A stretch of 64,000 nt of DNA from Ophioderma brevispina (taxonomy: Eukaryota > Echinodermata > Ophiuroidea > Amphilepidida > Ophiodermatidae). Below the pieces are notes generated by a model. That model was given only the letters and a program-made list of their open reading frames with translations, did not search any database and had not been told where the DNA came from. Made by a program: the position numbers and the translations under genes. Of the stretch, positions 4,740-60,772 are shown in pieces (within the stretch, counting starts at the first letter, position 1; the number at the start of each line of letters is the position of its first letter). The stretch covers positions 1 to 64,000 of the forward strand of contig JAMKCH010019712.1 of assembly GCA_023653785.1 (NCBI GenBank), in the 5' to 3' direction.

Positions 4740-5798
4740 TTCTTTCAGTAGTTCCAATGGTCCCCTCACTTTGTGACCAAAACACCACTCAAATTGGACT
4801 AATCCAATAATGACTCTTGTACATCCTCCCTGGTAGCAAATACAGCTAGGAGATGAACTCCCTCAATCCCAATCCCCTCTCATTTCAAATCAATAGGTTT
4901 TGATCATTGTTTTTAATGGTTGTGGTACCTTCTAGGCCCCCTGGATCTGGGTGGTATGCTGCACACTGTAAACTGGGAAATTCCCAACTGTCATCACTTG
5001 TTGGACACACTGACATGAAACTTGATTCTTGAGTCATCTGATTGATTTTGAAGGCCTACTAGGGTGAAAAACTTGGTTATAGCTTTCACTATATTCTTGC
5101 CTAGTATTTCTCAAGGGAAGCTCATGAATCTTGTGGAAGGACACATGATGGTCAGTAACTACTGATTTCCTGACCTGGTCTTTGGAAGTGGTCCTAAGCA
5201 ATCTATTAACACCCTACTAAATGGCTCATCAAATGCTGGTATTGGTTGCAAGGGAGCAGTAGGAATTTTCTGGTTAGGCTTGCCCACCATTTGACATGTG
5301 TGACAAGTCTTACAATACTCAGACACATCTTTTTCTAAGTGTAGGCCACCAAAAATGACTCCTAATTCTGTCATGTGTTTTTCTCACACCTAAGTGTCCT
5401 GCCATGGGACTATCATGGGCTATGCCTATCACTTCCCTATGGTATACCTTTGGCACTACAATTTGATGCACAACCTTCCATTCTTTATCTACAAGTGCAC
5501 CGGGTGGCCGCCATTTTCTCATGAGGACACCATTTTGCTTGTAGAAACATACAGGAATTTGCTCGGCTTCCTGTTGCGTTAATGCCCTCTCACCTAATTT
5601 CCTAAGTGCTGGGTCATTGTGTTGCTCATTTGCCAGCTTGTCATGGCTTAGAGGGTCTCCTTTACAGTCCCTAACTCTATCATGCCCAGCGGCTGGATTT
5701 TCATTGTTTACCAGCTTTTCACCTTGTTTGTGCTCAGGGGCTGGATTTTCACTAACAGGGAATTTTAGTCTCCCCCGAAGAGGGAAGATGACCTCCAA
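4740..5798 (-). pseudogene. Gypsy integrase (broken)
   Basis: The frame 5798-5319 holds the zinc-binding H2C2 module: VYHREVIGIAHDSP, then GHLGVRKTHDRIRSHFWWP. A frame change leads to EYCKTCHTCQ with the Cys pair, then FSRVLIDCLGPLPKT, which holds the first catalytic Asp. Beyond the stop at 5159 the core continues in other frames: LTIMCPSTRF, a QSDD stretch near 5045, IPPRSRGPRRYH where the family has HPQSQGALERFH, and VRGPLELLKE near 4755. The glutamate of the D,D35E triad is not preserved. The N-terminal part from 5798 is charged and has no domain I can name. Confidence 0.85.
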
Positions 5799-5870
5799 AT
5801 TCCTCTAACTTTGAGAGAAAAGCATCCTCTATATTTGGGACCAAGTCATCCTCGACGCTCTTCTTGAAGC

Positions 5871-9300: not shown

Positions 9301-10195
9301 CTAGGCGCACTTGATGATGCTTATAATGTGGTGCTTGAGGACATTGTTAAGTCCATTGTCTGAAGCACTTGACTCCCTACATCTTGAAAACAAGCATGGC
9401 TGCTGCCATGGGAGGCCTTGGAGGGAGCTGACGGATAAGAAGCTCCCACCTATAAGAATCAAAGGTGAACAACTGAAGAGCTTCCTTGACACATGTTTTC
9501 AGCACTTTAGTTCTCTACTTGGTAAACCAGTTCAGAATAACACTTAACCTTGATGACGCGCTTTCTCTTCAATCACAAGATAGCAGACACCCTTCCCATC
9601 CATTCTGGACTTTTCACTATAGAGGATCTTCAGATCTGCCTGAAGAAACTGAAGAACACCAAGACACCTGGTCCCGACAACATTCCTGCAGTAGTCTGGA
9701 AGAATCCACTATTCCATGATCAACTGTTAGAATTTTGTAACAACACCTACATGGGAAACAGACCAGCTGCCTTTTCAACATCATTCATCATTCCTCTACC
9801 AAAGAAAGGCGACCTCCAAAACCCCCAAAACTACAGAGGAATTACACTGTCACCACTGGCCTCTAAGATCTACAACTCCATGCTGCTCAAAAGAATCACT
9901 CCTCACATAGATCCCATTCTCAGACGGAACCAGAACGGTTTTCGCAAAGGCAGATCAACACTACCTCAGATACTTGCCCTCAGAAGGATCATCGAAGAGT
10001 TGAGAATTTCCAAGAGAAAAGCTTCAATTGTGTTTGTAGATTTTTCCAAGGCTTTTGACAGTGTAAACAGGGATGTAATGCTGCATATTCTCGCCAACTA
10101 CGGTGTCCCAGATGAGACTGTCAAGGCAATTGCCATCATGTATGATAACCCATATAGCTTGTGCAGACCATGGATCGGCCCACAAAGGAGTTCCT
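9300..10195 (+). pseudogene. LINE reverse transcriptase, N-terminal half
   Basis: The best preserved part is the open frame 9550-10197. It shows, in order: FTIEDLQICLKKLKNTKTPG (RT0-type motif with KTPGPD), IIPLPKKGDLQNPQNYRGIT (motif 1), NGFRKGRST (motif 2) and FVDFSKAFDSVNR (10033-10071; palm motif A with its catalytic Asp). The frame ends soon after MYDNPYS, where homology stops. The upstream stretch 9300-9540 is the same element in another frame (HGCCHGRPWRELTDKKLPP, SSLLGKP). Confidence 0.85.
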
Positions 10196-16434: not shown

Positions 16435-17190
16435 ATTCGACTCACAATAAATGTTTATTTTATTTTATCTTTTGGGGGGTCTTTTTTCTTCTTTTTTTCT
16501 CTTTTATTTTTTCTGTTGGGGTTCAATTAATCGGTCATAAAAAAGTAAATTCTAGACAATCTATACTTCTTCTCTAAACATGGTCCTTGTTATAAGAAAA
16601 GCAGGACAGAGCAATTAGGAAAGGTAATACCAAAATAACCTATAGACCTATAGGAAATAAAACAAAGCAAACCCTCCATAAGGTAGCTTAAGGTTTGAGA
16701 AGCCTTGTGACGTGATGAAAATGTGACAATATGGGGAATTGAACACATGTTTTATGGAGCCGAAACTTGAACCATGAAGAAGGACTTTCAAGATCGCCTT
16801 GATAGTACCTTACCATGCGCTGGTGAGATTGCAAATCATCTCCTGGAACACAGAACATTCCTTCCATCTAATCCATTGTTTGCCAACGTCAAGCTCGCTT
16901 TGCTGGCTACTGGTTCCCTGCAAAGGATCAAATCATATCAGATATTGGTAGCTGGAGACTATCATGCCCAAATCGAGGTAGAAGATTCTTCAACTACATT
17001 TATATGATTACAAGATACACTCAGCAAGATTTAGAGTATCATATGGATACTTCCTTCGTTCCATCAATAAAAAGATCGTACGCAATGAAATATAATAATT
17101 ATATCAATGCGATTGATTCAATTATATATAGCTTTAACATGTGGAGTGCCGAGTATTTATCAAACTCACCTTTGATATAAATATTCAAAC
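16435..17190. other. Unassigned DNA with a pyrimidine-rich stretch
   Basis: 16460-16520 is T/C-rich. The short frame 16774-17007 has no recognisable domain. Nothing else is supported. Confidence 0.4.
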
Positions 17191-17514
17191 TTTTAAATAA
17201 CAGCCAGTACGGGGTCATGGATAGAAACTTTGCCTCATAGGCTCACGTTCAAATGTAAAAAAACAAATAGCCAATAGGTTAATCTTTCACAATAGAATCC
17301 TTATGACTACAAGAATAAAATGTATTTAATAAGCCAACATGATTACGCCACAGGAGGTATTTCCAACATCCACGTGTCTCAGTTTAACATAAATGACAAG
17401 TACGACCATGATATGTAGGGTACATGTACACATGTTAAATTAATGTTATTATTGTCAAGGTGCCTTTGAAAACTTTAGCCACGTATTAGAAACGAACAGA
17501 ACCAAGGTAATTGA

Positions 17515-17790
17515 ATGATATATCAGGAGAGCTCGATTATGCGACGGATGCAGTTCGCTTGGGTTGTTCGGAAAGACAGGTCTGGTCAACCTATTGGCAT
17601 CCTGTGCAAGAATCCTCTAGCTATAGCACGTGTATACCACCTGACAGTTTTTGCGGAAATGACTTCCTTGATTGCATTCTATTGCTATCTGGTTGTCTCA
17701 TCGTCTTGGGTGTTGACATTCAAGTCTTATCAACTGGACCCTTTTACAACATAGTTGCTGAACTCCTCTACTGGCGTGCTACTCAATCCA
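17515..17790 (+). pseudogene. LINE endonuclease fragment, copy 1
   Basis: Across two frames: ARVYHLTVFAE, then FLDCILLLSGCLIVLG, matching the paralogue at 31830-32115 where SGCLIVLSDFNVPID is readable. The pattern FLD-LL-SG-LIVLGDFN is typical of CR1/L2-type LINE endonucleases around the GDFN catalytic motif. Here the DFN part is lost to a deletion. Confidence 0.45.
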
Positions 17791-18146
17791 GCATCTGCAT
17801 CAATTTCTCCTTATAGTCGCGTGTTCTTTTTTTTTTCATCTCCGGACGCAGAAACAGAAAGATTCCAAGACCAAGTTATTTGTAACTGCCAACAATCACA
17901 ATGCGTCTTGCTAACATGTTCCTATGGACATGCATGAACTCAACCCAAGCCAATTAGACTACTGTGAATTACCAAGTACAAGATTTATGGCGAATTCGAG
18001 GCTTCATTGATAAAGAAGTATTTCGTTCTACAGGTCATGCCTTGGTGACTACACACTCTTTTATGGCATCACATCACAATTACAACATCTCCAGAATAAT
18101 GCTGCTAAGGTTATTTTTGCAGTTTAAGGTTATTTTTGCAGTTGGA

Positions 18147-18151
18147 CGCCG
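18147..18151. other. Left 5-bp target duplication CGCCG of the Transib-like element
   Basis: CGCCG precedes CACAGTG. The same five bases follow the right end (21089-21093), and the paralogue has a single CGCCG at 32327-32331. A 3-bp GCC duplication with a terminal G in the element is the only alternative reading. Confidence 0.8.
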
Positions 18152-18231
18152 CACAGTGGGCCAGAATTGAATCAAAGCTGGCCAAAAATATTTGTTGAAA
18201 TTAGAAGGTTGATTGGTCAATTTTGAGGTAT

Positions 18232-19290
18232 ATCAGGGGGTTTGTTGACCCGCTGAGTTCAATGGAAGTATTTTCATATTTGTATGACGTCATTAATATG
18301 CTGTTTTCTGATTGGCCAATTGAAAAATTAATTGTAATGTATTGAATGGACCATAAAACAATAATTTTTGACATATATGGGGTTCCGGGACATGAGAAAT
18401 TTGAAGGTAATGTTTAGAAATATATATATATGACGTCATCAAAATACTGTTTTCTGATTGGTCATTGATAATATGCATTGTAATCCATAAATTAACCCAT
18501 AAAACAATGACTATTTTAGCATTTGGGGGTTTGTTGATCCGCTGAGTTCAATGGAAGTATTTTCAAATTTGTATGACGTCATTAATATGCTGTTTTCTGA
18601 TTGGCTATTGATAATATGCATCGTAATCCATAAATTAACCCATAAAACAATGACTATTTTAGCATATGGGGGTTTGTTGACCCGCTGAGTTCAATGGAAG
18701 TACTTTCAAATTTGTATGACGTCATGAATATGCTGTTTTCTGATTGACCAATTGAAAAATTAATTGTACTGTATTGAATGGACCATAAAACAATAATTTT
18801 TGACATATATGGGGTTCCGGGACATGAGAAATTTGATGGTAATATTTAGAAATATATATGAGGTCATCAAGATACTGTTTTCTGATTGGTCATTGGTAAT
18901 ATACATTGTAATCTATAAAATAGCCCATAAAACAATGACTATTTTAGCATATAGGGGTTCTTGGACATGCGAAATTTGATGGTAATATCTAGAAATTTGT
19001 ATGACGTCATCAGAATACTGTTTTCTGATTGGTCTTTGATAATATGCATTGTAATCCATAAAAGGGCCCATAAAACAATGACTATTTTAGCATAAAGGGT
19101 TCTGGACATGAGAAATTTGATGGTAATATTTAGAAATATATATGACTTCATCCAAATACGGTCTTCTGATTGGTCATTGATAATATGCATTGCAATCCAT
19201 GAAAGGGCCCATAAAACAATGACTATTTTTAGCATTATAGGGGGTTCTTGGATATGAGAAATTTGAAGTATATGTGACGTCATTTAGAAG
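18232..19290. repeat. 143-bp minisatellite inside the Transib-like element (about 7 units)
   Basis: The string CTGTTTTCTGATTGG (or a close variant) recurs at 18301, 18447, 18590, 18733, 18875, 19018 and 19159, giving a period of 141-146. Most units carry a TGACGTCAT-like palindrome a few bases before it, and CCATAAAACAATGACTATTTT or a variant after it. Two unit types are mixed (CCAATTGAAAAATTAATTG versus TCATTGATAATATGCATTG). Minus-strand open frames here are by-products of the repeat. Confidence 0.9.
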
Positions 19291-19445
19291 TATAAATACA
19301 AAATACATTCAAAATGTTATTGTAACCTTTAAAAATAATATGACATTATCAAATTTCCTGTTACATACTTAAAAAGTCCATAAAACATTGACTATCGAAA
19401 CAGATAAAGAGTTTAAGGACATAAAACTGTAGTATTTTGAAATAT

Positions 19446-19620
19446 ACCCCTTAAATCCCAAAATGCTGTTTTTGCCACTTTTCAAAAATCACGGAGCGGA
19501 CCCTTGCCTTGTGTTTAGTAGTGGGAAATAGCTCTTAGATCTAACAAGATATATAACGCTACCTCCTTTTTTGCGGTGATGGTCAGGTTGGTAGTCATTT
19601 TCCTTTAGGGATGTAAGGGA
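19446..19620 (+). repeat. Module H, copy inside the Transib-like element
   Basis: Shares TTTTTGCCACTTTTCAAAAA, ATCTAACAAGA, ATAACGCTACCTC and GGTTGGTAGTCATTTTCC in order with 28228-28400 and 37025-37185, which lie outside any Transib ends. It may be a captured segment or an independent small repeat. Confidence 0.7.
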
Positions 19621-21088
19621 TATATGCCGTCATCAAAATAATGTTTTCTCACTCTGATCTGCACAAAATTGTTGTAAAATCATAGCAATGTTTACTAAAA
19701 CAAAAACACAGTGGTATGATCCCCTAAAATTTATTTTGAAAAGCTTTTAAATACCGTTTTCTAATGCTACTTGAAGAAAAGTAATACATAAAGCATAAGC
19801 CACTGATTATGTGAGACTTGGGATATTGTTTTCGCATCACAATTATTTTGATTGGGGGCGTTCGCTATTTTCGTCATTTTTCTTACGTACAAGTTGTACG
19901 TAACCTTTTGACCTCCTCGAGTTAAATAATTGCGGTATTTTGGATTTTCCCACTCTCACAAATCGACTTTTTTCATACGTATACTTTGATAAGTTTTACC
20001 CCTCCCTCGCATACGTTTTGTACCTATTAATATGGCGAAAATGGCGAACGACCCTTAACGTACATAGCATGATACAATATCTATTTAGCCCGTATTCATA
20101 AAAGAAGATTACTTATAATCCTACAATATGGATTTAGATTGCTTTTCTTGCTGAAAGTATTATGTTTTTTATTTACATTTTTAAGAACTTGAAAGGCAGA
20201 AAGAGCTGCAGAACTTTCTGTTTCGCGATTTTTTCCTTGGCATTTATTTTTAATGCTCTAGAAACAAGCATTACAAAGTTTTCCGCAAAGCCTCAATAAC
20301 TTGGATTCCATGATTCTTCTTAAGCTAAAGTTACACGGGTTCCTCTTTTATAAATGCTGGTCGTATAGGAATATTGTTTTCCACAGATATGCTGCATAAT
20401 TATATACTTCTAGAACTATCAGAATCTGTATCCTCTTCAATTGCTGGAATGTTCTTAACGAATATTGATTTTTAGACGGACTATAAATAGTGCATATCGC
20501 AGCGCGGTGCTGCGGCAAGTTGAATTGTTAAAAACTGCCTTTTAGCATAGATGCAGTGCATTTAAAATACCTCCAATATGAAGTGTGGCAAATTGTGGCA
20601 AAAAATTTAGTATTAATTAAAAGCATAGGCTTGGATTAAGATGTTGATATTAGCGGGAATCAACGGGAATCCTAACTTTATGCTATCTTTTTTGAAAAAA
20701 GTGAATTTCTAGCAGTTTTTTTGGTCAAAAAAGGGGATTTTCCCCCTTAATATTCTACACATTATTTGTTTCATTAGTATATTTCTAATTTGTGTATAAT
20801 CATGTGGTAGATAGAGACAATTAAAATATGGGTCCTTTATTCTTTCTCTCGTCACACGGAAGTTTTCATATTTGGTGGTATTATCATTTTAGACTTTTAG
20901 AGCAACAGCCACGCTTTTTTCATGTTTACGGACGTATATGACACCTTTAAATTCCTTTAAAAATAAATATTTAACATAATCGTGTTCTTTGGGAAGTTTT
21001 CTTTCCCTAACGACATAAAAAACATAAAAAAGTCACATTCGGCAATTTTGATTTTTGGCCAGCTTTGAGGTGATTCTCGCCCACTGTG

Positions 21089-21322
21089 CGCCGTGTGCAT
21101 GGCACGCCATTTATGCAGGACCTCCATTGGCCTCTTGTACAGCTTCATATCTGTATACATTCCAATAAGGACTGCACTAGGATCATCATCTGCCACAACC
21201 CGACTCACTTGATTTCGACCATCCAAACTGAAGATTGGTGACCGATCATTCCATCTTGCAGGATTTAATTTGTATAAGTGATATTGGTTAAAATCAGAAT
21301 TACCACTCTCTTCATGGTTCAT
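21089..21322 (-). pseudogene. Paralogue-conserved frame of unknown function (contains WNDRSPIFSLDG), copy 1
   Basis: The minus-strand frame reads NPARWNDRSPIFSLDGRNQ then SRVVADDDPSAVLIGMYTDM and KLYKRPMEVLHKWRAMHTA. Copy 2 (32616-32320) keeps the same words but has a stop and small deletion at the YTDM position; copy 3 (around 40250-40180) keeps ARWNDRSPIFSLDGR. In copy 1 the frame is cut on both sides: by the Transib-like element at 21088 and by the (ATT)n-tailed insertion at 21269. I do not recognise the family; it may be an old gene or transposon fragment. Confidence 0.35.
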
Positions 21323-21545
21323 TTGATATGGGCAAAGGAACCATGAAAGCTCTCACTTACCATTCGGTGTGTATTTGTGTTTGATTAGTTTGTTTGGATG
21401 TTGCAACATGGCGCTGATTAAGCTGCTGCCTTGAAGTTGCATTGTTTCTGTTTGATTAGTTTGTTGTATGTCTCTGGCAATTTAGCTTACCGGCTACGAT
21501 ACGAGATTAAATAAACCAGTTATTATTATTATTATTATTATTTAA
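21269..21545 (+). mobile_element. (ATT)n-tailed retroposon insertion (SINE-like), absent from copy 2
   Basis: Copy 2 reads GCAGGATCTAAGCTGTGG without interruption (about 32493-32510); copy 1 has about 277 extra bases between GGATTTAA and TTTAAGCTG. The insert ends in a (ATT)n tail (21520-21540). ATTTAA on both sides (21263-21268, 21540-21545) is the likely target duplication. No clear tRNA promoter boxes were found, so it may be a truncated LINE or a non-tRNA SINE. Confidence 0.7.
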
Positions 21546-22060
21546 GCTGTGGAATTGGATTCCTTCAGCATTCTTAGAAGCAACCCCTTAATTTTAAAGA
21601 GACAATATTGAGAGAAGTATACTGGTGGTGTATACGAATCAATATTTCAGTTTATCGAGATATCAAATAGGGAGGGGTGACACATTCCAGTTTCCAGGTG
21701 GAAAATTCCAGTTTTTAATTATTGCTGGTATTAAAGAGGAGATGGTTTATAAATTGTGATAAAATGCTGTGGTGGTTCATTTCGTTTTGTTGCAGTACAT
21801 TTTGGCATTACTTCATGACCCTACCTTGAATAGATATTAAAGGCGCCGCTGAACTATAAGCATTTTCCAAGCGGAACGTACATGGCGCCCACTCTAGGTC
21901 TCGATTTCGGTAAGCCCTGTAACTTCACCCAGTGGGTGCATTTCTTTCAAAATTTACTCAAAATTAATTAATTAAAATATTGGCAATCAATTATCAAATG
22001 ATATTGAACCACTGAGAATCATTCTAATTGATTATAACGTGTTGACGTGTTTTTTTTCAG

Positions 22061-22113
22061 TTTTTAGAAAAATTCTTTATCAAATATCAAAAGGATGTAG
22101 ATACCATTAACAG
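22061..22113 (+). other. Candidate 53-nt exon-like segment, copy 1
   Basis: A T-rich tract and TTTTTTTCAG end at 22060; CAG/GTAAGTATT follows at 22111-22119. The 53 nt between are open (FLEKFFIKYQKDVDTIN) and end in phase 2. The paralogue at 33014-33065 keeps both splice-like borders but is 52 nt and frameshifted. No neighbouring exons were found, so it may be an exon of a lost gene or chance. Confidence 0.25.
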
Positions 22114-22339
22114 GTAAGTATTTTCTACAGCTTCGGTGCCCGCTACAAGGCGATTTTATTGTGTTGAATAATTCACCCCGATATCGCATTGACATGAGAG
22201 CCTGACAGGACATAGACTATTTTCTTACAACGTTGTCAACCTTTTTGTTTTATTTATTTGGCAATGTTTTTGTCATCTAAACGTTCTTTGGTGATTTAAT
22301 TTCACTATGAACGATGAAAGCATAGAGTGCATCCGTTTT

Positions 22340-22432
22340 GATGTTTTCTCTCTCTCTTCTTCTCCCTGCTTTTGTTTGCCCTGCCTTTTCCACAGGCTCT
22401 CTTTGCCTCTATCTCTGTCTCTCTCGATCTGT
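22340..22432. repeat. CT-rich microsatellite
   Basis: Interrupted TCTCTCTC tract, with counterparts in copy 2 (33300-33385) and greatly expanded in copy 3 (40800-40925). Confidence 0.7.
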
Positions 22433-23493
22433 GAATTGAATTGAAAGTCGTTATATAATTAATATAATCGACACAATTATATAATTAATATAGTTGTGTC
22501 AATCATGCTTATTTCTGTGCAATGCGATTTCGATCTTTGATCTTTAATTTCTAAAAATAATTTAAACATGTAAGTAAACAAAATAAATTGTGATGATCTG
22601 TTAAAGTGTACTATGCCGAACTGACATTAAACCACATAGCCTCAGCACACCTTTTAGATTTTCGCTGGTCACAAGGGCCCAGTTAAACAATAAACCATTC
22701 CTGGGAAGCATGCGGGACGCAGCTCTAAAAGGCCGCAGAACCCTAATCAACTTACAATGACCACCACAATTCGCAAATACCAGCTCCGCAATCCGCCAAT
22801 TACACTAAAAAAAATATATGTACTGTATCTACTCAATAAAATTAAGTGTAACGGGGTTTTGCATTTCATTTTCATTGATTAATTTCAATGAGCAATCTTT
22901 TAAGGTTACTCGTGTATTTTAATTGCGATAGCTCAAAATGTATGAATCTGTAAAAATCATAATAATTTTTCTGCATTGTACTCAAAATCACACTACTGTA
23001 CTTTACTGCGCTTATTTTGAAAGCACACAAAGAAATTATCAAGTTAGTCAAGTTTCTGGAACTCAAATTAATGTTGTAGGTATGTGGGGAAATAGGGAAA
23101 AGAAAAGAGGGAAAACGAGAGAAAATGTTTGAGGTACTATGTGCCTTGTTTTACATTGTATTATTCATATTATTAATTTATATATATTATCTTTCTTTCA
23201 AAATAATAAAGTGCGAATTAAAATGAGCAAATACCATTCAAAAACATGAAGGACTACTATATACTTTATATTTTCACTTCAAAAAATTAAAGCGCAAATA
23301 ATACGTTAAATTACTGCTTGTTAGTGTCCTTTTTGCTTTTACAAATTGTCTTGTTTTTATAACTTTTATTACCTTAACTGATTTTAGTCTGGTTTAAATA
23401 AAAGTATCAAACATTACAACAAACAATTAAGATTCAGCTAGTGTAAAATGAGTAATTGTTACTATTTTTGGCACAATTTACCGTAACTTCGTA

Positions 23494-24893: not shown

Positions 24894-25799
24894 CCCAATT
24901 ATAGCATTCAACTTAGTACTTTTATTTCATTGTTCTGAACAACACTAAAATGACCTTATCTCAGGAACCGCGAGTCTAATTCTGATGGGGCTATCAGCAA
25001 CATGCACGAAGCGCAGTTTAAAACTTATCTTTTTATTTATCCCGACAAATGACTCATTTTACTTGATCGCATCACAATGCTATCCTCATTTAGTATCCAT
25101 ATATCAAAGCAAATTTTATAAAAAATATTGATTTGAAATCACGAGGGCAAAATCGACTTAGAAAATAGTGTATAGCCCTAGCACGCTATGCTTACATATT
25201 TGTAACACATTTAAAAAAAAATATGTGGTGACACGAATAATTTGACACCATTTTTAAAGCCATAAGACTATGGTAAAAGTTTACCCCAGTATGACCTTCA
25301 ACATAATTCACGATGTACCTACTGAAGTATACTTTGTAGCTGGGGAATATATATATTTCTTAAATCCTTGAGTCATGACAAAATTATTGACAAGGATATA
25401 CATTCTAACACAATCTGAGCACTTTTAAGTAGAGACTCCTGTACAAAACTACCCCTTGTATTTTGTTCAAACCTCATACTTGAGTCGCCAAACTTTTTAA
25501 TTTGATAATAGCTCTCTTGAAACTAACAATCACGGCCCACCATTATCAGATGGTTTTTCCCTTGGAACATTGTATCGCAGGAGGTGAACAATCACCAGTA
25601 TTATCGTTTCCATTTAAGCAAGTCTCTGTTAAACATTTTGTTGGCGTTTTCATCAATGAGGTATCAGAAATGATGGTAGCTTTATTTCTCAGGAAATAGG
25701 CATTCCACAACAGAAATACTAGATAGTCTTTGTATTGGTAGTATATATGTGTTGATGTCCACAATATCTCACGCCATCGCTGTCCACCTGGTTTATTAG

Positions 25800-26719: not shown

Positions 26720-28227
26720 CATTTATTGTAATTATCAGCTGTTCTTTGGTATTTGATCATACCGAATATTACAGACATCTTCTGCTCTAAACGTCGTGTC
26801 ATTTTTATGAGCACTTCATACCATTTTTTTTAAACTGCAGAAGACCAAAACTGGGCACTTGAACAAAATTGCCAGATTTTGTTAGCATATATTTTGTGAA
26901 AAGTAACGATTTAGAGTAAAGGTAGGTCGGATTAGCCATGCAACATTTTTTTTGGTAAGCAACGTTACCAATAATTAGATATTTTTGGAATAACATCAAA
27001 AGGTAGTTTATCCGAACACAAATGAAAGTATTTGCTTGTTCGTTTCGCATACTTTTTAAAAAAATATTTCTAAATAATGGGTTGGTACCGAAAGACTATT
27101 AAATCCTTATAAGTTTCCCGTCTTCATGCATAAAATCGACCACAGTCATGTTAACAGGATCGTATGTCTGTCTGAACAACTACGCGTTTTTGCGCATTTG
27201 CAAATGAGTAAATGATTATTAACATCCATGAAATAAATCTATGGATATAGAGAGTGCTATTCTTATCCTAGTAATGGGTTGTTTTTAGGGGCGCGGGAAG
27301 TGATGACAAGATTTGGCCGATTTTATTGTGGAGGTGTTGTTTGCAACTAATATATATGCATTCATCCAGTTGTTGAGAATTCTGTACAGCTCCGCGAATT
27401 TACAGGGTAAAAATCAACATATGACAAAACCACAATAAGTAAATCATAAAACCATGGAGTTATTAGATGAATCCAAATATCAACCAGCACTCTGCCAACT
27501 ACGGGACATGACCATGTTGTGTAAGGGTACATATCAGAAATCTCATTTGGTTGAAAAATGGCCTGTCTGCTGCATTGGAATAATACTGATGATAAAAAGC
27601 ATCAGGTTTGATTGGAAAATTATAAATCAAATTATACATCTCAAATGTGCCGAGCAATCTAGGTCAACTCTACGAATACACCGATCCTTGTAAACACCCT
27701 TAACAACAGTTGTACTCAAAAGAAAACTTGTCTGTGATCTTCCAAACTTGAGTTTCACGAGCCGTGCAAAAAATAAACAACATAGGGTTTGGGTAGTATT
27801 TCGCAGTTATAGCTTAAGTCGTATTCATATTGTAAGAAGAAATGACCTACTTAAAAAAACCTTATTTTTGCGCTGTGATTTTATTCATACATAAAGTTAC
27901 ATGACAGATACTAGGGGACAAATAGTTTAGGATTGAATATTTTCTACCTACCTTGTCGTGTCTGTTTATCCAGACCTGTATCCAGGATAGATATTTTGAG
28001 ACGAGGACCCCATAAGTAGACCTTTTGACGTAAATCCCGTTTTTTGGTCCATTTTGTAGCAAACAGTGGGGGTTTCGGGGCAACACGGGCCTGTATTTAA
28101 GCTCCTATGTGGAAATGGGCGCCTGGGCGCCATTTCCAAAACTACCTTTGTGCAAAATCACATTTCTCATCAGATCTGCAACAAAAAGTCATAGTACGCG
28201 TTCTGATATGATATATATCCCTAACGA
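26720..28227. other. Non-coding part of duplication copy 1
   Basis: Aligns with 35610-37020 of copy 2. Short frames such as 27454-27693 are not conserved in copy 2. No gene is recognised. Confidence 0.45.
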
Positions 28228-28400
28228 CGCCCCTTAATACCATTTTTGCCACTTTTCAAAAAAATCACGGAGTAGACCCCTGTCTTGTTTTAGGGGAAAT
28301 TGCCCATAGATCTAACAAGAAAAATAACGCTACCTCGTTTTTTGCGGTGATCGCCAGGTTGGTAGTCATTTTCCGAAAAGGACGTTAAGGATATGGGACG
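28228..28400 (+). repeat. Module H, copy in duplication unit 1
   Basis: See 19446-19620 and 37025-37185: the same landmarks in the same order, ending GGTTGGTAGTCATTTTCCGA then ACGTTAAGGATATGGGACG. Confidence 0.7.
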
Positions 28401-30992: not shown

Positions 30993-31799
30993 GAACAAAA
31001 AACAAAAGAAACGCAAGAATCATGATTAATGCTTAAAATATCAACTCACAGAAACAATGGACACAAATTTCCACAAGGGTGAGAGTTCAGTACGCCGGAG
31101 TTTACTCTTTTGTTCTTCTCCAAACTGTTATTATTTTTATTATTTTATTTTTGTTCTCGAAATTAGTCCAACTGATTTTCTTCATAGTTTAATAAAAAGG
31201 TGCAGTCCGATCGTCATTGATATTAGATCGAAAAGCTGATTTTCTCATTGGTCTTGGCAATTTGAGCCCCCACATTCATTCATTCCCAAGATATAAACAA
31301 AAAAATACCACCGTTTTAGTGTTAACCATCAATATAGCACTGTATGAATAGGGCTTTGCCACATCCAGTATTGCGTCTCCCATCAAAACTGCAAGTTTGT
31401 TCACCACGGTACTTGATGGGGTGTATGTGCAAGTGCCCAGGCTCTCATATCATATGTGCGTATGTGGATAGACTCGTTGCCTCGTAGGCTCACGTTCTAA
31501 GTAAAACAATAGCATATAGGTTATCTTTTCGAGAATCGAATCCTTACGACTACGAAGAGATAAAAATGTTATTATACAGCCAACATGATTACCGGCCACA
31601 GGGATAGTCCGATTATGACCTAGTCTAACGTCTCTAGTAGGTTTTTCCAACATCCACGTGTCTCAGTTTAACATAATGGACAACGTACGATAGATAAGGT
31701 ACATGTCACAATGTTAAATTAATGTTAGTATTTCAAGGGGTGCCTTTGAAACTTTAGCCCATATAGAACGATTTCAAGATCAGAACCAGATTAGTGATG

Positions 31800-32115
31800 A
31801 TATATCAGGAGAGCTCGAGTATGTGGACGGATGCGTTCGCTTGGGTGTTCGGGAGGACAGGTCTGGTCAGCTAACCTATTGGCATCCTGTGCAAGAATCC
31901 TCAGCTATAGTACGGGTATACCATCTGGCACTTTTTGCTGAAATGTGATGACTTCCTTGATTACATTATATTGCTATCTGGTTGTCTCATCGTCTTGAGT
32001 GATTTCAACGTGCCCATTGACATTGCCCAAAAGTATGACTCTAAGCATCAACTAACCAGCAAATCATCGGCTGGAGTCCACACACGGTCCAACAAGTCTT
32101 ATCATCAACTGGACC
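31800..32115 (+). pseudogene. LINE endonuclease fragment, copy 2
   Basis: Frame 31935-32159 reads FLDYIILLSGCLIVLSDFNV then PIDIA, matching the core of CR1/L2-like endonucleases (LIVLGDFN). The upstream stretch in another frame has VYHLALFAE. It is better preserved than copy 1 but not functional. Confidence 0.5.
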
Positions 32116-32319
32116 CGCTACTCGTGTACTACTCAGTCCAGCATCTGCATCGATTTTGATTACAATCGGGTGTTCTTTTTTCATCTTCGGAAGCAGAAAC
32201 AGAAAGATTCCAAGAGCAAGTTATTTGTAACTGCCAACAATCACAGTGCGTCTTGCTAACATATTTGTATGGATATACCTGAACACAACTCAAGCCAATT
32301 AAGCTAAGGTTATTTTTGC

Positions 32320-32616
32320 AGTTGGACGCCGTGTGCATGGCACGCCATTTATGCAGGACCTCCATTGGCCTCTTATACAGCTTCATATCTACATTCCAAG
32401 AAGGACTGCACTGGGATCATAATATGCCACAACCCGACTCACTTGATTTCGACCATCCAAACTGAAGATTGGTGACCGATCATTCCATCTTGCAGGATCT
32501 AAGCTGTGGAATTGGATTCCTTCAGCATTCTTAGAAGTAACCCCTAATTTGAAAAACATATTGCGAATATACTGGTGGTGTATACAAATCAATATTTCAG
32601 TTAATCGAGATATCAA
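32320..32616 (-). pseudogene. Paralogue-conserved WNDRSPIFSLDG frame, copy 2
   Basis: The minus-strand frame reads FFKLGVTSKNAEGIQFHSLD then PARWNDRSPIFSLDGRNQ, followed by SRVVAYYDPSAVLLGM and a stop. MKLYKRPMEVLHKWRAMHTA continues in another frame. CAA/GTGAGT right after GRNQ could be a splice donor. Function unknown; see 21089-21322. Confidence 0.35.
32327..32331. other. Unoccupied target site (CGCCG) matching the Transib-like insertion
   Basis: Copy 2 reads GCAGTTGGACGCCGTGTGCA without interruption. Copy 1 has the same bases on both sides of 18152-21088 with CGCCG doubled. This gives the exact ends of that element. Confidence 0.85.
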
Positions 32617-34905
32617 ATAGGGAGGGGTGACAAATTCCAGTTTCCAGGTGGAAAATTCCAGTTTTTAATTAAAGAGGTATTAAAGAGGAGAGAGTTTATA
32701 AATTGTGTTAAAATGCTGTGGTGGTTCATTTCGTTTGTTGCAGTACATTTCGGCATTACTTCATGACCCTACCTTGAATAGAGATTAAAGGGCGCCCGCT
32801 GAACTATTAGCATTTTCTAAGCGAAACGTACATGGCGCCCACTTTAGGTCTCGATTTCGGTAAGCCCTGTAACTTCACCCAGTGGGTGCATTTCTTTCAA
32901 AATTTGCTCAAAATTAATAAATTAAAATATTGGCAATCAATTATCAAATGATATTGAACCACTGAGAATCGTTCTAATTGATTATAACGTGTTGACGTGT
33001 TTTTTTTGTTCAGTTTGTAGAAAAAATCTTTACAAATATCAAAAGGATGTAGATACCATTAAGAGGTAAGTATTTTCTACTGCTTCGGTGCCCGCTACAA
33101 GGCGATTTTATTGTGTTGAATAATTCACCCCGACATCGCATTGACATGAGAGCCTGACAGGACAAAGACTATTTTCTTACAACGTTGTCAACCTTATTGT
33201 TTTATTTATTTGGCCTCAAGACCAATGTTTTTCTCATCTAAACGTTCTTCGGTGATTTAATTTCACTATGAAAGCATAGTGCATCCGTTTTGATTTTTTT
33301 ATCTTTCGCTCTCTCATTCTCTCCCTGCCTTTCTGTTTGCCGTGCCTTTTCCACACGCCTCTTGACTCTCTCTCTCTCTCTCTGTGAATTGAATTGAAAG
33401 TCGTTATATAATTAATAATTATAATTAATACAATTATAAATTTAATATAATTGTGTCAATCATGCTTATTTCTGTGCAATGCGATTACGATCTTTGATCT
33501 CTAATATCTAAAATAATTGAAACATATAAGTAAACACATTAAATTGCGATGATCTGTTATAGTGTACTATGCCAACTAACATTAAACCACATAGCCTCAG
33601 CACACCTTATAGATTTTCGCTGGTCACAAGGGCCCAGATAAACAAAAAACATTCCTGGGAAGCATGCGGGGACGCAGCTCTAAAAGGCCGCAGAAACCTA
33701 ATCAACCTACAATGTACCAGCTCCTCCATAACCCTTGGATGATGGATCGAGGGGACAAGTACCGCCAATTACACTAAAAAATAATGTACTGTATGTACTC
33801 AATAAAATTAAGTGTAACAGGGTTGCATTTCATTTTATTGATTAATTTCAATGAGCAATATTTTAAGGTTACTCATGTATTTTAATTGCGATAGCTCAAA
33901 ATGTATGAATCGGTACAAATCATAATAATTTTTCTGCATTGTACTCAAAATCACACTACTGTACTTTACTGCGCTTATTTTGAAAGTACACAAAGAAATT
34001 ATCAAGTTAGTCCAATTATTAATCAAGTTTCTGGAACTCAATGTTGTAGTTATGTGGGGAAATAGGGAAAAGAAAAGAGGGAAAACGAGGGAAAATGTTT
34101 GAGGTACTATGTGCCTTTTTTTACATTGTATTATCATATATTAATTTATATACATTATCTTTCTTTCAAAATAATAAAGTGCGAATTAAAATGAGCAAAT
34201 ACCATTCAAAACATGAAGGACTACTATATACTTTATATTTTCACTTCAAAAATTTAAAGTGCAAATACGCCACTAAATTACGTGTTTGTGCTCTGTTTGG
34301 TTTTACAAATTGTCTTGTTTTTATAACTTTTATTAACTTAACTGATTTTAGTCTGGTTTAGTTAAACGTATCAACCATTACAACAATCAATTACGATTCA
34401 TCTAGTGTAAAATGAGTAATTGTTACTATTTTTGGCACAATTTACCGTAACTTCGTATATATGTGTATGTTTGAATTGTTAAACTTTTCTCAAATTAAAT
34501 AAGTTAAGAGCATTTGGGACAATTTTATGCTCTTACTATTTACATATTTTGAGTATTGAATGAAGTATGAGTAATCATTTTGAGTCACAATTACTAAGCA
34601 CACGGATATTTTTAGTGTATGCACTCGGTCTCGAGTCCAGGCAATATATGGTATTATAAGAACCCAAGTCCAAGGCCTTGCCGACTGAGCTGATCAATTT
34701 CTATATATGTAGCAAAATCGCAGACTATAGATGTTTTCATGTTTAGAAAACCTTCTGTACAAACATTTTAACTTTTGGGTTTTTATTTCAGTGCATTATC
34801 AATGTTAAAATATGATTTATGAATATAAATATGTGTTAATATTCTAGGAAAGGAGGCCGGTGTGGCATGAGATAATTCCTCTGGACTCATAGTGCACCTA
34901 CAACG

Positions 34906-35142: not shown

Positions 35143-37024
35143 TCCAATATAGCATTCAACTTAATACTTGTATTTCATTATTTTGAGCAACACTAAAAGG
35201 ATCGTTAACTCTAATTCTGATGGGGATCTCAGAAATGTATGCATGAAGGGCAGTTTAAAACTGATTTTTTTAATTTGTTTCCCGATGGTAGCTTTATGTC
35301 TCAGGGAATAGGCATTCCACAACAGAATGCTTAGATAGTTTATATTGGTAGTTATTGTTGGTGATGCCACAAGATACCTCACGCCATCGCTGTCCACCTG
35401 GTTTATATGAGGTATTGTAAGTCTGTTTATAAATTTAAATGGCAATTGTACAATGATGTTTGTCTGGCTAAGTCTTTCACCACTTGTTTTTCCACATCGC
35501 CAGCGTTCCCGTCATTGGAAAGCTGTACTTGACACTGTAATGAACGTGGCTATTTTGGATAAAGATAGTTCAGATAACTAAATGAATGAATAATAAATAA
35601 ATAAATAAATAAACGTTTATTTTTAAGTGTCTCATTCTTTGGTATTTGAGGCATACCGAAGAGGGCATCTTCTGCTCTTAACGTCGGTGTTATTTTTATG
35701 AGCATATCATTGTTTATAAAGGATAACTGCAGAGACCAAAACTGGGCACTTGAACACATATTCCAAAATTGGCACAGAGTTTGTAACGTTAACAACAACA
35801 GAATATTTTTGAATAACATCAATAGGTAGATATTATCCAAAAAACAACCTGAGAGTATTGCTTGTTGTTGCCATAATTTTTAAAGAGATATTTCCTAAAA
35901 AAATAGAGTGGTACCGAAATGTACTATTAAATCCTAAATTATAATTTACCTCGTATTCATACATAAAATTGACCATAGATCATTTTAACAGGATCGTATG
36001 TCTGTCTGAACAAATACGCGTCTTTTTTTCACATGAGTAAGTAATATACATCCATGAATATAGAGAGTGCTATTCTTATCCTAGTAATGGCGGTGTTTTC
36101 AGGAGTGCGAAGTGATGACAAGTTGGATGAATTTTATTGTGGAGGTTGTTGCAACTAATATGCATTCATCCACTGTTGTTGAGAATTCATGTTACAGCTC
36201 CGCGATATTTTACAAGGTAAAAAATCCACATCTGACTAACCACAATAAGTAAATTATAAACCAGAGAGTCCTATTACATGAAATCAATATCAACCAGCAC
36301 TCTCAACTACGGGACATGACCATGTTGTGTAAGTGTACATATCATGAAATCTTATTTGGTTGAAAAATGGCCTGTCTGCTGCACTGGAATACATACGGAT
36401 GATAAAAGGCATCAGGTTCGATTGAAAATTGGTAAATCAAATTATACATCTCAAATGTGCCGAGCAATCTAGGTCAACTCTACGAATACACCGATCCTTG
36501 TAAACACCTTAAGCAAACAGTTGTATCTGCAAAGAAACTGTCTGTGATATTTCCAACTTGAGTTTCACGAGCCGTGCAAATAAATAAAACAATAGAGGTC
36601 TGGGTATTATTTCGCAGGTACAACTTAAATCGTATTCATATTGTAAGAAGAAATGGCCTACTTAAACAAACCTGATTTTTGCGCTGTGATTTTATCCATA
36701 CATAAAGTGACATGACACTAGCTGACAAATAGTTTAGGATTGAATATTTTCTACCTAGCTTGTCTTTGTGTCTGTCTATCCAGACCTGCATCCAGGATAG
36801 GTATTTTTTGGGAGGAGGACTGGACTGTTGGACGTAACCCCTTACAAAATCCCATCTTTGGACCCATTTCGTGGCAAAACGTGGAAGATTTGGGGTTATG
36901 TAAGCTCCTATGTGGAAATGGACGCATGGATGCCATTTTTAAAACCTCAAAAAATTACATTTATTATCAGAGCTTTTTGTAACAAAAAATTTAATGCATA
37001 ATAAGCATTCTGATATAATATATC

Positions 37025-37185
37025 CCTAACGACCTTTAATGCATTTTTGCCACTTTTCAAAAATCACGGAGTGGGCCCCTGCATTGCCTCTAGATCTATC
37101 AAGAAAAATAACGCTACCTCCTGTTTTGCGGTGATCGCCAGGTTGGTAGTCATTTTCCGAAATGACGTTAAGGATATGGGACGTA
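37025..37185 (+). repeat. Module H, copy in duplication unit 2
   Basis: Counterpart of 28228-28400 with the same landmarks and a short deletion after the GCCCCTGCATTGCC stretch. Confidence 0.65.
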
Positions 37186-39739: not shown

Positions 39740-40819
39740 GCTTCGGAGTAGTGTTTGATATTTCAGTGGACATGCATGAACACATCTCAAGCCATCAATC
39801 AATGTGAATTATCAGCTTCAAAATTTGTGGTGCATTCGACGGTTCATTGATAAAGAGGCATTTCATTCTTTTATTCGTGCCTTGGTCACTAGTTGACCTG
39901 AAAATTGAAACGCACTCCTTTATGGCATTAGGTCACAAGAGCTTTTAGGATTACAGCCCGGAACAAGGCTGCTAAATTATTTTTGTAGTTGGACAGGACA
40001 CCCGAGTACGTGTGTGCATGTCACGACATTCATGGCTTTCTGTACAGCAACATATTAACTTCAAGCTTCTGGTTCACCTTTGCTAACTAGTGTCTTCATG
40101 ATCAATGACCAGGGTATCTCACTGCCGATCTTCATATCTACACGTCAAGAAGGCTTGGACTATGATCATTAATAGCCACAACCAGATTCAATAGACTTCG
40201 ACCATCCAAACTGAAGATTGGTGAGCGATCATTCCATCTAGCATGTCTAGCAGGACCTTAGCTGTGGAATTCTATTCCTTCAGTAATCCTATCACAATTG
40301 TAAGAGACAATATTGAGAGAAGCACACTAGTGGTGTACACGAGTCAATATTCCGGTAAAACGGGATAGTTATGGAGAGGTGATAAATTTGAAAATCTCAG
40401 TTTTCTTTAATTTTCTCTGGTCTTAAAATACGGAGGAGTCAATATTATGGAACTGGTTTCTAGTGACCCCATACATATAGAGCCTATGGAAAATGGAAAA
40501 AAACGTGACATTTTTTTTGCTTAGATTTTATTCAGTTATTAGAAAAATACTTATATTATTTTCTAAATTTCTTTATCAAAAGGATGATGAAATAATAATA
40601 CAAAAGCGATTTTATTGTGCTTAATAATTCACCTCGTCATTGCATTGTGACAGCCTGATAGGAGCTTGAGTATTTTCTTACAACGTTGTCTGCCTATTGT
40701 GTTATTCATTTCGCACCAAGAGCAATGTTTTTGTAATCCAAATGCTCTCTGATGATTCAATTTCACTATGAAAGCATGGTGCATCCGTTTTTATTCTAGT
40801 TTCTCTCACTCTCTCTCTC

Positions 40820-40861
<42 letters not shown>

Positions 40862-42100
40862 TCTCCCTGTCGTTCTGTTTGCCCTGTCTTTCCTCGGGCT
40901 CTCTTTGACTCTCTCTCTCTCTCTTGAATTGAATTGTAATTGTGTAAATTATGCTTTCTTATGTACAATGCGATTTCAATCGTTCTATTATAGTGCACTA
41001 TGCCACACTGACATTAAACCATACTGCTTCTGCACACTCACAGATGTTCCTGGGAAGCATGCGGGGACGCAGCTCTAAAATGCCGCAGAATCCTAATCAA
41101 CCTACAATAACCATCGCAACCAATAAGTACTAGCTCAGGCTCCTCAATAGCCCCTGGGTCGAGAGGACAAGTACCGTCAATTGCGTACACGGTCGCACGG
41201 ATGTTTGAGTCCATGCGATTTAATCGTACTACAAAGACTCCAAGTCCAAGGCCTTGCCGATTGAACTAATCAATTATTTGTATGTGATATAAATGTAGCA
41301 AAAATCGTTTTCATAACTTCTCAGACTATTGGTGTATTTTCAAAAATGTTGGAAAACAATGGCATGTACTGTACATACAAATTTTACTCCTTTTTTTTTA
41401 CATGTTTTAACGCTAAATTATTTTTGCCCAAGATTTTATGAAATTGCCAAAACATCACTTGCACATATTTTGGTGAAAAAAAATCAAATCGGCCATGGCG
41501 TTCTTATACTAATTAGCATAAATAAGCATTTCAAATTTGTTTTGCCCCTTAGATCGTACTGGGGTAACTTATTTTTTATTTCAGTAATGTAATTGTCCTA
41601 ATATTATGAGCCTTATTATATAGATTTTTTTTTAAATCCGTATAAGCGATTTTTATTTTTTCTCTGTCATGTGGTCTTGCTTGTGTACCTCATCAATGAC
41701 CAGTTTGGGTAAAAATTTCAATGGCAAAGTGGTTTTCAGAGGGGGTCCACACCTTATGTGCGGAAGACCTCTTGCACTTAAGTGTTAATAGACGGCATTA
41801 TTAAGTAAACGTCAAGGTCCAGCTTTTCAATCAAGACGCCTAATAAAGACTATCTGTCTGAATAGCACTTAACCAAAGAGTGATGTAAGGAGCTATTTCT
41901 GAATTCCCGGCACAACAACAACAACAACAACAAACTTCTCGTCTACGTTTCAAATTTGAAGAACAAGTTATAAAGGAAACTGCTGTTGTGTATATGTTTG
42001 GAAATAATTAAAGTCAGCTTTATAAAGAAAGACTTTCTATGTTATGTAGCATTAATATTTTTGTAAAGTTTTATGCACCAATTGCCTGTCTTTTCCTTCA
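39740..42100 (+). repeat. Decayed partial third copy of the tandem duplication
   Basis: Segments match copy 1 in order: 39760-39900 with 17925-18060, 40190-40330 with 21180-21640, 40500-40600 with 22040-22110, 40700-40990 with 22260-22520, 41000-41160 with 22610-22800, 41200-41275 with 23825-23905, and 41790-42080 with 24180-24440. It is more diverged than copies 1 and 2. It contains no Transib-like insertion (GTTGGACAGGACACC near 39985). Confidence 0.65.
40800..40925. repeat. (CT)n microsatellite
   Basis: Long CTCTCT tracts at 40806-40860 and 40908-40924. Minus-strand Arg/Glu-rich frames here are artefacts. Confidence 0.9.
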
Positions 42101-60085: not shown

Positions 60086-60345
60086 TTACACACATTCTCT
60101 ATGACGGACTGATATCGCTAGTCCCCACAAGCTAATCAATATTTATTATATCTTAAAAATTGCCCATCACCCTTATTTTAATAAATAAGTGCATCATACT
60201 TGTATGTTAGAAAGTGAGCAGATTTTAAAACACCACTTAAAAAATGAAGCCAAAACACAAAAAAGAGTAATGTTCTCCAAAAGCTTACACCCATTCTTCA
60301 TGAGATGAATCATATGAATTTTAGCATATTTATTCCTTCCCACAG

Positions 60346-60621
60346 TAATCAAGCCGATAGATCCTGTCATTTTTCCCGGCTCCGATTTGAACATAACGTG
60401 CACTTGTACTTCACCGGATTGTAAATCCAGTGATATAGTTTGGAAGAGACACTACCGAACTCCAGTAAAGGAGGGCGTCACAAGTGTAGATAAGAAGACA
60501 TCTCAGTATCGTAAGCAAAATGTGACGCTTGAGGAGTTCAGAAATTCTCCCGTCTACTCGTGCTGTTTAGGAGACCCACAAAATGACTGTTTTAAACCAG
60601 CAACAACCGTAACAGTTGCAA
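60346..60621 (+). CDS. Exon 2 of an immunoglobulin-superfamily gene: Ig-like domain
   Basis: The exon is 276 nt, with acceptor CCCACAG at 60345 and donor GTAAGT at 60622, phase 1 on both sides (a symmetric 1-1 exon, as usual for Ig domains). The frame starts IKPIDPVIFPGSDLNITCTC, with the B-strand cysteine in NITC. SDIVWKRHYR carries the core C-strand Trp. TSQYRKQNVTLEEF and NSPVYSCCLGD follow, with the F-strand Y-x-C pattern, and TTVTVA is the G strand. Extra cysteines (CTSPDC; CCLGD...DC) suggest added disulfides. NIT and NVT are possible N-glycosylation sites. It is probably secreted or cell-surface; ligand unknown. It joins exon 1 through a GTA (Val) codon. Confidence 0.75.
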
Positions 60622-60647
60622 GTAAGTATGGACGGTATGGTCATATA

Positions 60648-60666
60648 CCCCCCCCCCCCCCCCCCC
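60648..60666. repeat. Poly-C run (19 C) just inside intron 2
   Basis: Begins 26 bases after the donor. An uninterrupted C tract; length is likely to be uncertain in the assembly. Confidence 0.85.
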
Positions 60667-60772
60667 GATTATTTCTTAATTAAGCGACAAACATCATCTT
60701 CTTTGGTATCAGTGTGTAGCTACATATGTTCTTTCTTCAAATCAAGTACAAACATATCAGGTTTTAACAATA

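Follow-up and report, generated by a model that had tools for sequence, protein, structure and literature searches.

A 2937-bp insert at positions 18152–21088 of the stretch analysed here (the window, 64,000 nucleotides of contig JAMKCH010019712.1 of the brittle star Ophioderma brevispina) is, almost certainly, a non-autonomous Transib transposon; it looks like an internal-deletion derivative and would have been moved by the Transib transposase of a related copy. It represents a new Transib family, which as a transposon is ordinary; Transib elements in echinoderms have already been reported (PMC7204232). The features annotated in and around the insert are the following:

18147–18151, no strand: left copy of the target duplication, CGCCG, present once at the empty site (32327–32331)
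18152–18189, plus strand: left terminal inverted repeat, 38 bp, 33/38 positions matching the right end; left-type ends occur in the genome
18152–18158, plus strand: left-end heptamer CACAGTG, read directly
18182–18190, plus strand: left-end nonamer-like block CCAAAAATA, 23 bases past the heptamer, 6/9
18262–19266, plus strand: tandem array of about seven 143-bp units with cAMP response element (CRE)-like TGACGTCA and CCAAT boxes
19469–19623, no strand: module also found at 28243–28394 and 37017–37158 of the window
20412–20457, minus strand: likely remnant of a transposase C-terminal tail, reading KNIPAIEEDTDSDSSRSI-stop, homologous to the end of the Transib gene in contig C4112
21050–21058, minus strand: right-end nonamer-like block CCAAAAATC, 7/9
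21051–21088, minus strand: right terminal inverted repeat, 38 bp, matching the left end and ends in the genome
21082–21088, minus strand: right-end heptamer CACAGTG, read directly
21089–21093, no strand: right copy of the target duplication, CGCCG, read directly
about 32305–32502, plus strand: duplicated locus without the insert (the empty site), with a single CGCCG at 32327–32331

CACAGTG reads inward from both ends of the insert (18152, plus strand; 21088, minus strand), and the terminal inverted repeats differ from each other only at position 11 and at positions 17–20 (binomial tail of the 33/38 match, 1e-14). As the original prediction had noted, this is the heptamer of the V(D)J recombination signal sequence (RSS), and it is followed at each end by a spacer of exactly 23 bases and a block that resembles the nonamer ACAAAAACC; the best nonamer match of each end sits at precisely this spacing. 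CACAGTG occurs 13 times in the window, counting both strands, and only the two insert ends have a nonamer of at least 6/9 at +23, while none of the 13 has one at +12. When the spacer and nonamer columns of the repeat were shuffled, the observed joint nonamer score was reached in 975 of 100,000 shuffles, so that the nonamer alone constitutes evidence at only about the 1% level. A six-frame Pfam scan of the insert gave no credible domain (the best hit, at E 0.01, scored 15.7 bits where the cut-off is 27), and Rfam at gathering thresholds gave no match.

The duplication and the empty site that had been claimed for this insertion were both confirmed. The GC-rich 5-bp sequence CGCCG stands on both sides of the insert and once, without insert, at 32327–32331. 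Joined flanks of the insert aligned to the empty site with 192 of 198 positions identical and one gap of 4 bases, which does not lie at the junction. The left flank contributes only 27 bases to this alignment, since the sister copy is missing a stretch present in the copy holding the insert and in a third copy. With the start placed at CAC, repeats in the flanks fit only at lengths 2 and 5, the former being part of CGCCG. The window contains three diverged copies of this locus (17000–22500, with the insert; 31465–33457; and about 39767–40939, the more diverged third copy), and the first of them carries a 19-bp tandem duplication at 18106–18143, directly left of the insertion, that is absent from the empty site.

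A search of the genome of the same species (2.51 Gb, 65,844 contigs) recovered at least 77 stretches matching the element; this number is a lower bound because 40 of 4115 candidates were scored. A pattern for the end, covering 35 positions with up to two mismatches, was found at 61 + 56 = 117 places (100 of them listed), and its reversed control at 0 + 0. All 40 further ends that were read from the pattern matches continue with the element's own subterminal sequence, from either its left or its right side. Outside the array, 31 other loci are 79.0–92.1% identical to the window copy, so the family is not very young, and the length of the array (18262–19266 in the window) varies from copy to copy. 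The three refuting outcomes named in the original prediction (duplications of other lengths, another transposase family, an unconserved nonamer block) were checked in this genome, and none of the checks overturned it. Long copies of 5–6 kb (L052–L054) were considered as autonomous elements and rejected, as they are the same element with other insertions; no frame was recognised by eye in their open reading frame lists, and they gave no transposase match at E 0.1. Pattern scans of the viral_contigs and genome_contigs sets for the ends gave no match.

The target preference was read from 95 end flanks, namely those of 103 ends (up to 6 substitutions; 40 left, 62 right, 1 unclassified) that have a CAC start and five flanking bases; both ends of one copy were counted separately, the window copy was included, and L028, which overlaps L052, and L029–L051 were excluded. 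CGNCG is present exactly in 56 of these flanks, compared with 53 of 63,996 start positions in the window. By position, the flanks have C in 80, G in 76, any base, C in 77 and G in 87, and one base further out C is found in 50. Fourteen two-ended pairs, the window copy among them, have CAC at both ends at a distance of 1.5–7.5 kb, with one right end used twice (L004). An exact 5-bp duplication was observed in eight of them (CGCCG twice, CGGGG, CGATG, CCACG, CGTCG, CGGCG and CGCCC); shuffling the right flanks gave on average 1.0 exact pairs and at most 7 in 20,000 shuffles. No pair with the CAC start matched at 3, 6, 7 or 8 bp, in agreement with the length originally proposed.

Seven of the eight exact pairs fit equally well a start one base further out (GCACAGTG) with a 3-bp duplication, since C is the first and G the last base of most targets, and the window site taken alone also fits this register, with GCC as the duplication. 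Read in this way, the insert could be of CACTA/Chapaev or hAT type, with only a superficial likeness to an RSS at its ends; the wider clade is described as having CA..TG ends and duplications of 2–5 bp, and hAT5 families as making 5-bp duplications (PMC12730594). We give this explanation almost no credence. The copy L096 (CGCCC) fits only CAC with 5 bp, 8 of the 95 ends have no G before CAC, and CGNCG is the target published for a lepidopteran Transib (Transib entry of a table, PMC5704228). Together with the link to Transib genes described below, which largely refutes the rival, L096 and these eight ends speak for the CAC start with a 5-bp duplication; duplications of 2–4 bp with a CAC start, a feature of CACTA/Chapaev elements, are not what was found. 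A hAT element is judged unlikely from the Transib linkage, and CACTA/Chapaev is likewise rejected; no search aimed at CACTA or hAT transposases was made. Two Drosophila Transibs are described with 5-bp duplications and CCANTGG (PMC3276498).

Transposase genes were sought with a degenerate pattern for a Transib motif. It matched exactly two places in the genome (C4112 and C23848; control, 0), and at both the frame is Transib-like but broken. Part of the frame in C4112 matched PDB 6pqn with an E-value of 7.8e-14, the only chain to appear up to E 1; 6pqn and related entries are presumably Hztransib, the table itself naming a DNA-mediated transposase. A query joined from the transposase pieces matched 161 proteins, among them P0132, with 53% identity over 85% of the query. 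This relative matched 6pqn at 5e-97 (residues 2–456 of 510) and the RAG1L chain 6b40 at 0.0015. In the O. brevispina genome P0132 gave 35 rows, the best at C44753:99460–100686 (57%, one stop). Another relative, P0128, was dropped as a Transib query, being only distantly related (28% over 221 residues). Ten of the 35 rows match only within residues 372–471 of the transposase and have no stop (for example C32173:6484–6759, C95, C47097, C5751 and C63729); these open, C-terminal-only stretches are possibly host exons made from Transib.

A related end was present at all three transposase loci whose flanks were fetched for the end test (C4112, C23848 and C44753). In C4112, a left end at 11105 is identical over its first 29 bases (CACAGTGGGCCAGAATTGAATCAAAGCTG) and then diverges, retaining 26 of 34 fixed positions, with the flank CGGTG; the element and this contig are collinear over element positions 1–380, 1521–1632, 1647–1691, 1878–1902, 2036–2184 and 2261–2306, the last of these falling at the 3' end of the transposase gene, which is antisense. 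In C44753, CACAGTGGTCCAGAATGATGTCAAAGTGGTGCAAAAT at about 98069 retains 28 of 34 positions, has the flank CCCCG and lies 1.4 kb from the best transposase match. In C23848, CACATTGGGCCAGAATGAATCAAGTGG at about 4798 agrees at 23 of 34 positions without gaps and at 15 of the outer 16, with the flank CCGGG. A fourth locus, C13823, was met by both searches: an end at 25110 (33/34, flank CGGTG, homology to element positions 1–329) accompanies a broken transposase at 26855–28224 on the opposite strand. The best unrelated end matches in these four stretches reach 17–21 of 34. The original prediction had placed a Transib or RAG-like transposase elsewhere in this genome, and what was found are decayed Transib genes at loci with related ends. 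The assignment to Transib is consistent with terminal inverted repeats that start with CAC and carry an RSS-like heptamer, with the 5-bp duplication in the window and in 8 of the 14 two-ended copies (window included), with the GC-rich CGNCG target and, as far as homology indicates, with a DDE transposase that appears to be encoded by elements with related ends.

The element itself likely keeps the last codons of such a transposase. Its positions 2261–2306 (window 20412–20457, minus strand) match C4112 over 46 bp at 80% identity (E 3e-6); the tail in the element reads KNIPAIEEDTDSDSSRSI-stop, and that of C4112 reads HKNIPAVEENTDYDTSDC-stop, in frame with the SEEAQEARNK motif and with one stop between. 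The comparison took in 31 copies, counting that of the window and leaving out L028 (which duplicates L052); NIPAIEED is found exactly in 14 of them and is changed or shifted in the others, the frame shown for each copy being the one that best fits the tail. With the last codons apparently retained, the element looks like an internal-deletion derivative. Its ancestor would have been an autonomous Transib that lost nearly all of its transposase gene and kept its two ends, its tandem array and the gene's last codons, and in the simplest account the deletion stopped shortly before the 3' end of that gene. A related copy would then provide, in trans, the Transib transposase that binds the ends of about 38 bp and nicks at CAC. 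Excision would proceed as it does with RAG, leaving a hairpin on the flank, a chemistry that we infer here and that has been published for Hztransib as a blunt signal end and a hairpin flank (PMC6941560). Insertion would join both 3' ends to a CGNCG target at points separated by 5 bp, and so produce the 5-bp duplication of a cut-and-paste transposition.

Several observations weigh against this account. Six of the 14 pairs, some of them nested or with other insertions, have no exact 5-bp duplication (L053 matches at 4 bp, L002 at 2 bp and four at none). Every transposase row that matches more than 100 residues has at least one stop, and in the stretches read each transposase locus had one end; none with both ends was seen. 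The end in C23848 lies upstream, not downstream, of its transposase gene, and C13823 is not a blind test because it was fetched for its end. The ends also vary, from 33/34 in C13823 through 28 in C44753 and 26 in C4112, where the nonamer block is missing, to 23 in C23848. The transposase tail depends on the single 46-bp DNA match to C4112, tblastn of the C-termini of four database relatives against the element gave no significant match, and neither the copies nor the window yielded any further transposase remnant; the short match and the negative tblastn leave the tail likely rather than proven. Finally, the right part of the element (about 2307–2937) has no match in the C4112 stretch that was read, so part of its history is missing.

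The same genome contains genes of the RAG1 family: a search with PF12940 matched 27 places. Three long RAG1-like frames were scanned; they contain N-terminal domains of RAG1 and do not belong to Transib, and their genes, in L049–L051, carry an importin-binding region, a RING domain and the RAG1 core:

L049:2364–5471, contig C37194: RAG1-like gene, open frame of 1036 residues
L050:2252–5254, contig C10541: RAG1-like gene, open frame of 1001 residues
L051:2867–4798, contig C14342: RAG1-like gene, open frame of 644 residues

The gene in L051 matches no more than roughly one quarter of the core model (175–330 of 653), keeps a C-terminal zinc-knuckle-like end and may be domesticated. The best-scoring relative of a RAG1-like protein here is from the brittle star Amphiura filiformis (59%). 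No kelch domain (E up to 0.01) was found in antisense frames of the 3.4–3.5 kb that follow two of the RAG1-like genes downstream, within the short flanks read. CAC ends with an exact 5-bp duplication were also looked for around the two long RAG1-like genes, and the one weak pair obtained (AATTT) was taken as chance. The RAG1-like loci L034, L038/L043 and L048 share DNA that is 84–96% identical and, from this similarity, are probably copies of one RAGL transposon.

These genes raise the alternative of a non-autonomous insert of the RAGL (RAG1L/RAG2L) kind, mobilised by one of the genome's own RAG1-like proteins, two of the 27 family matches having open frames of 1036 and 1001 residues. RAGL elements also make 5-bp duplications, and non-autonomous ones have been published (PMC7204232). 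The ends of the insert, however, fit the protostome RAGL consensus CACTWMCAAACKTYKBB at only 6/17 and 5/17 positions and ProtoRAG TR1 at 5/7; no element-type end (up to 12 mismatches in 34) was found in the 22 RAG1-like stretches L029–L050, 20 of which have only about 1.5 kb of flank, and Transib genes do carry related ends. We regard a RAGL origin as highly improbable, and of the initial label, a Transib/RAG-type transposon, the Transib part stands and the RAG-like part does not. Because a Transib with an exact heptamer and long, open RAG1-like genes share this genome, it may be proposed that a RAG1-like protein, perhaps domesticated, also binds or cuts the Transib ends of the element, an idea to which we assign only a very small chance. 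If true, Transib ends would serve a RAG-like enzyme as targets, replaying in the present how a Transib repeat became an RSS.

Returning to the ends of the Transib element, we compared conservation along them in two sets. Set A comprises 16 left and 18 right ends of L001–L027, found by whole-element similarity and filtered at up to 6 substitutions; set B comprises 24 left and 43 right pattern-found ends, selected on positions 1–35. In set A, left ends scored 0.964 (positions 1–7), 0.979 (8–16), 0.984 (17–20), 0.994 (21–30) and 0.992 (31–38), followed beyond the repeat by 0.956 (39–48) and 0.946 (49–78). The right ends over the same intervals gave 0.937, 0.975, 0.917, 0.994 and 0.986, then 0.950 and 0.935. 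In set B, positions 21–30, 31–38 and 39–48 scored 0.983, 0.922 and 0.808 on the left and 0.988, 0.933 and 0.886 on the right. The 38-bp repeat is therefore better conserved overall than the sequence that follows it, and its best-kept block is 21–30, not the heptamer or the nonamer.

These values bear on the possibility that the ends are true bipartite 23-RSS-like signals, with a heptamer and a nonamer separated by a free spacer. In its favour, the heptamer is identical to the consensus, the best nonamer match of each end stands at exactly spacer 23, and the nonamer block is conserved as had been expected of it (99.2% left and 98.6% right in set A; 92.2% and 93.3% in set B). On the other side, positions 21–30, outside both boxes, reach 99.4% in set A, above the heptamer (96.4 and 93.7%), and in set B the nonamer block falls to the values just given against 98.3 and 98.8% at 21–30. 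Positions 17–20 differ between the left and right end types, yet are 98–99% fixed in the left type. The transposase-bearing relatives C44753 and C23848 keep the outer 16 bp (15/16 each) while the inner part drifts, and C4112 has lost the nonamer block. Both spacers are 23, so the 12/23 pair of V(D)J RSSs is absent, and the spacer starts with GG (CACAGTGGG), among the worst starts in a vertebrate 12-RSS assay, where it scores 0.020 against 1.144 for CACAGTGAT (PMC9723617), and hence a poor RSS start for vertebrate RAG. We consider a bipartite signal unlikely. The earlier two-box reading holds insofar as the repeats do differ midway (11, 17–20), but the block at 21–30 is at least as conserved as the boxes, and, with relatives that keep the outer 16 bp, the notion that two boxes alone are read finds no support.

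By the tests made, the element's ends are not RSSs (both spacers 23, nonamer 6–7/9, GG at the spacer start), and the comparison with V(D)J recombination needs weakening. That Transib ends share ancestry with RSSs is a published view (e.g. PMC4411706), and symmetric heptamer–spacer–nonamer Transib ends have been described (PMC8355894); PMC8289069 attributes little or no nonamer similarity to Hztransib-like ends.

Some further observations concern the interior of the element and the rest of the window. The 143-bp units contain TATGACGTCAT, five of whose seven exact occurrences in the window fall inside the element, as well as an inverted CCAAT box, and units related to the array also adjoin the ends of the transposase-bearing relatives. 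The module of about 155 bp at 28243–28394 and 37017–37158 is 75–83% identical to part of the element and perhaps represents an older mobile piece. A reverse transcriptase remnant lies at 9541–10194 and an integrase zinc-binding domain remnant at 5159–5804, and the frame at 60318–60680 has a weak match to an immunoglobulin-like domain (E 0.0044, below the cut-off).

Copies of this well-supported family are numerous, their 38-bp end is defined and their CGNCG target is clear, and RAG1-like proteins are encoded in the same genome. With such a pair, one can ask within a single organism how Transib and RAG-like enzymes avoid each other's targets, and which parts of a 23-RSS-like end are needed.

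Compared with known systems, the element shares the CAC start and 5-bp duplications with RAGL transposons, ProtoRAG included, but differs from them in its end consensus, and no RAG1-like gene with element ends was found in the scanned stretches. With V(D)J RSSs it has in common the heptamer CACAGTG and the 23-base spacing to an A-rich block; unlike them, it has no 12/23 pair, a nonamer of 6–7/9, a poor GG spacer start and conservation that extends beyond the two boxes. Two sea urchin proteins, both named uncharacterized, resemble the joined transposase query (Strongylocentrotus purpuratus LOC115927723, 68% over 62%; Lytechinus pictus LOC129266800, 55% over 74%). Fly and mosquito Transibs are described as having a heptamer and an A-rich nonamer-like block, with symmetric spacers of 20–22 bp and a few 12/23 pairs (PMC8355894); compared by description only, they share the RSS-like layout of the element, whose spacer is 23 at both ends. 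Hztransib of Helicoverpa zea (6pqn) has a transposase homologous to most of P0132 and to the C4112 piece and makes a 5-bp duplication like that of the element (GCTCG in PMC1852546). In contrast to Hztransib, the element has no transposase, its targets are mostly CGNCG, and its heptamer is exactly CACAGTG.

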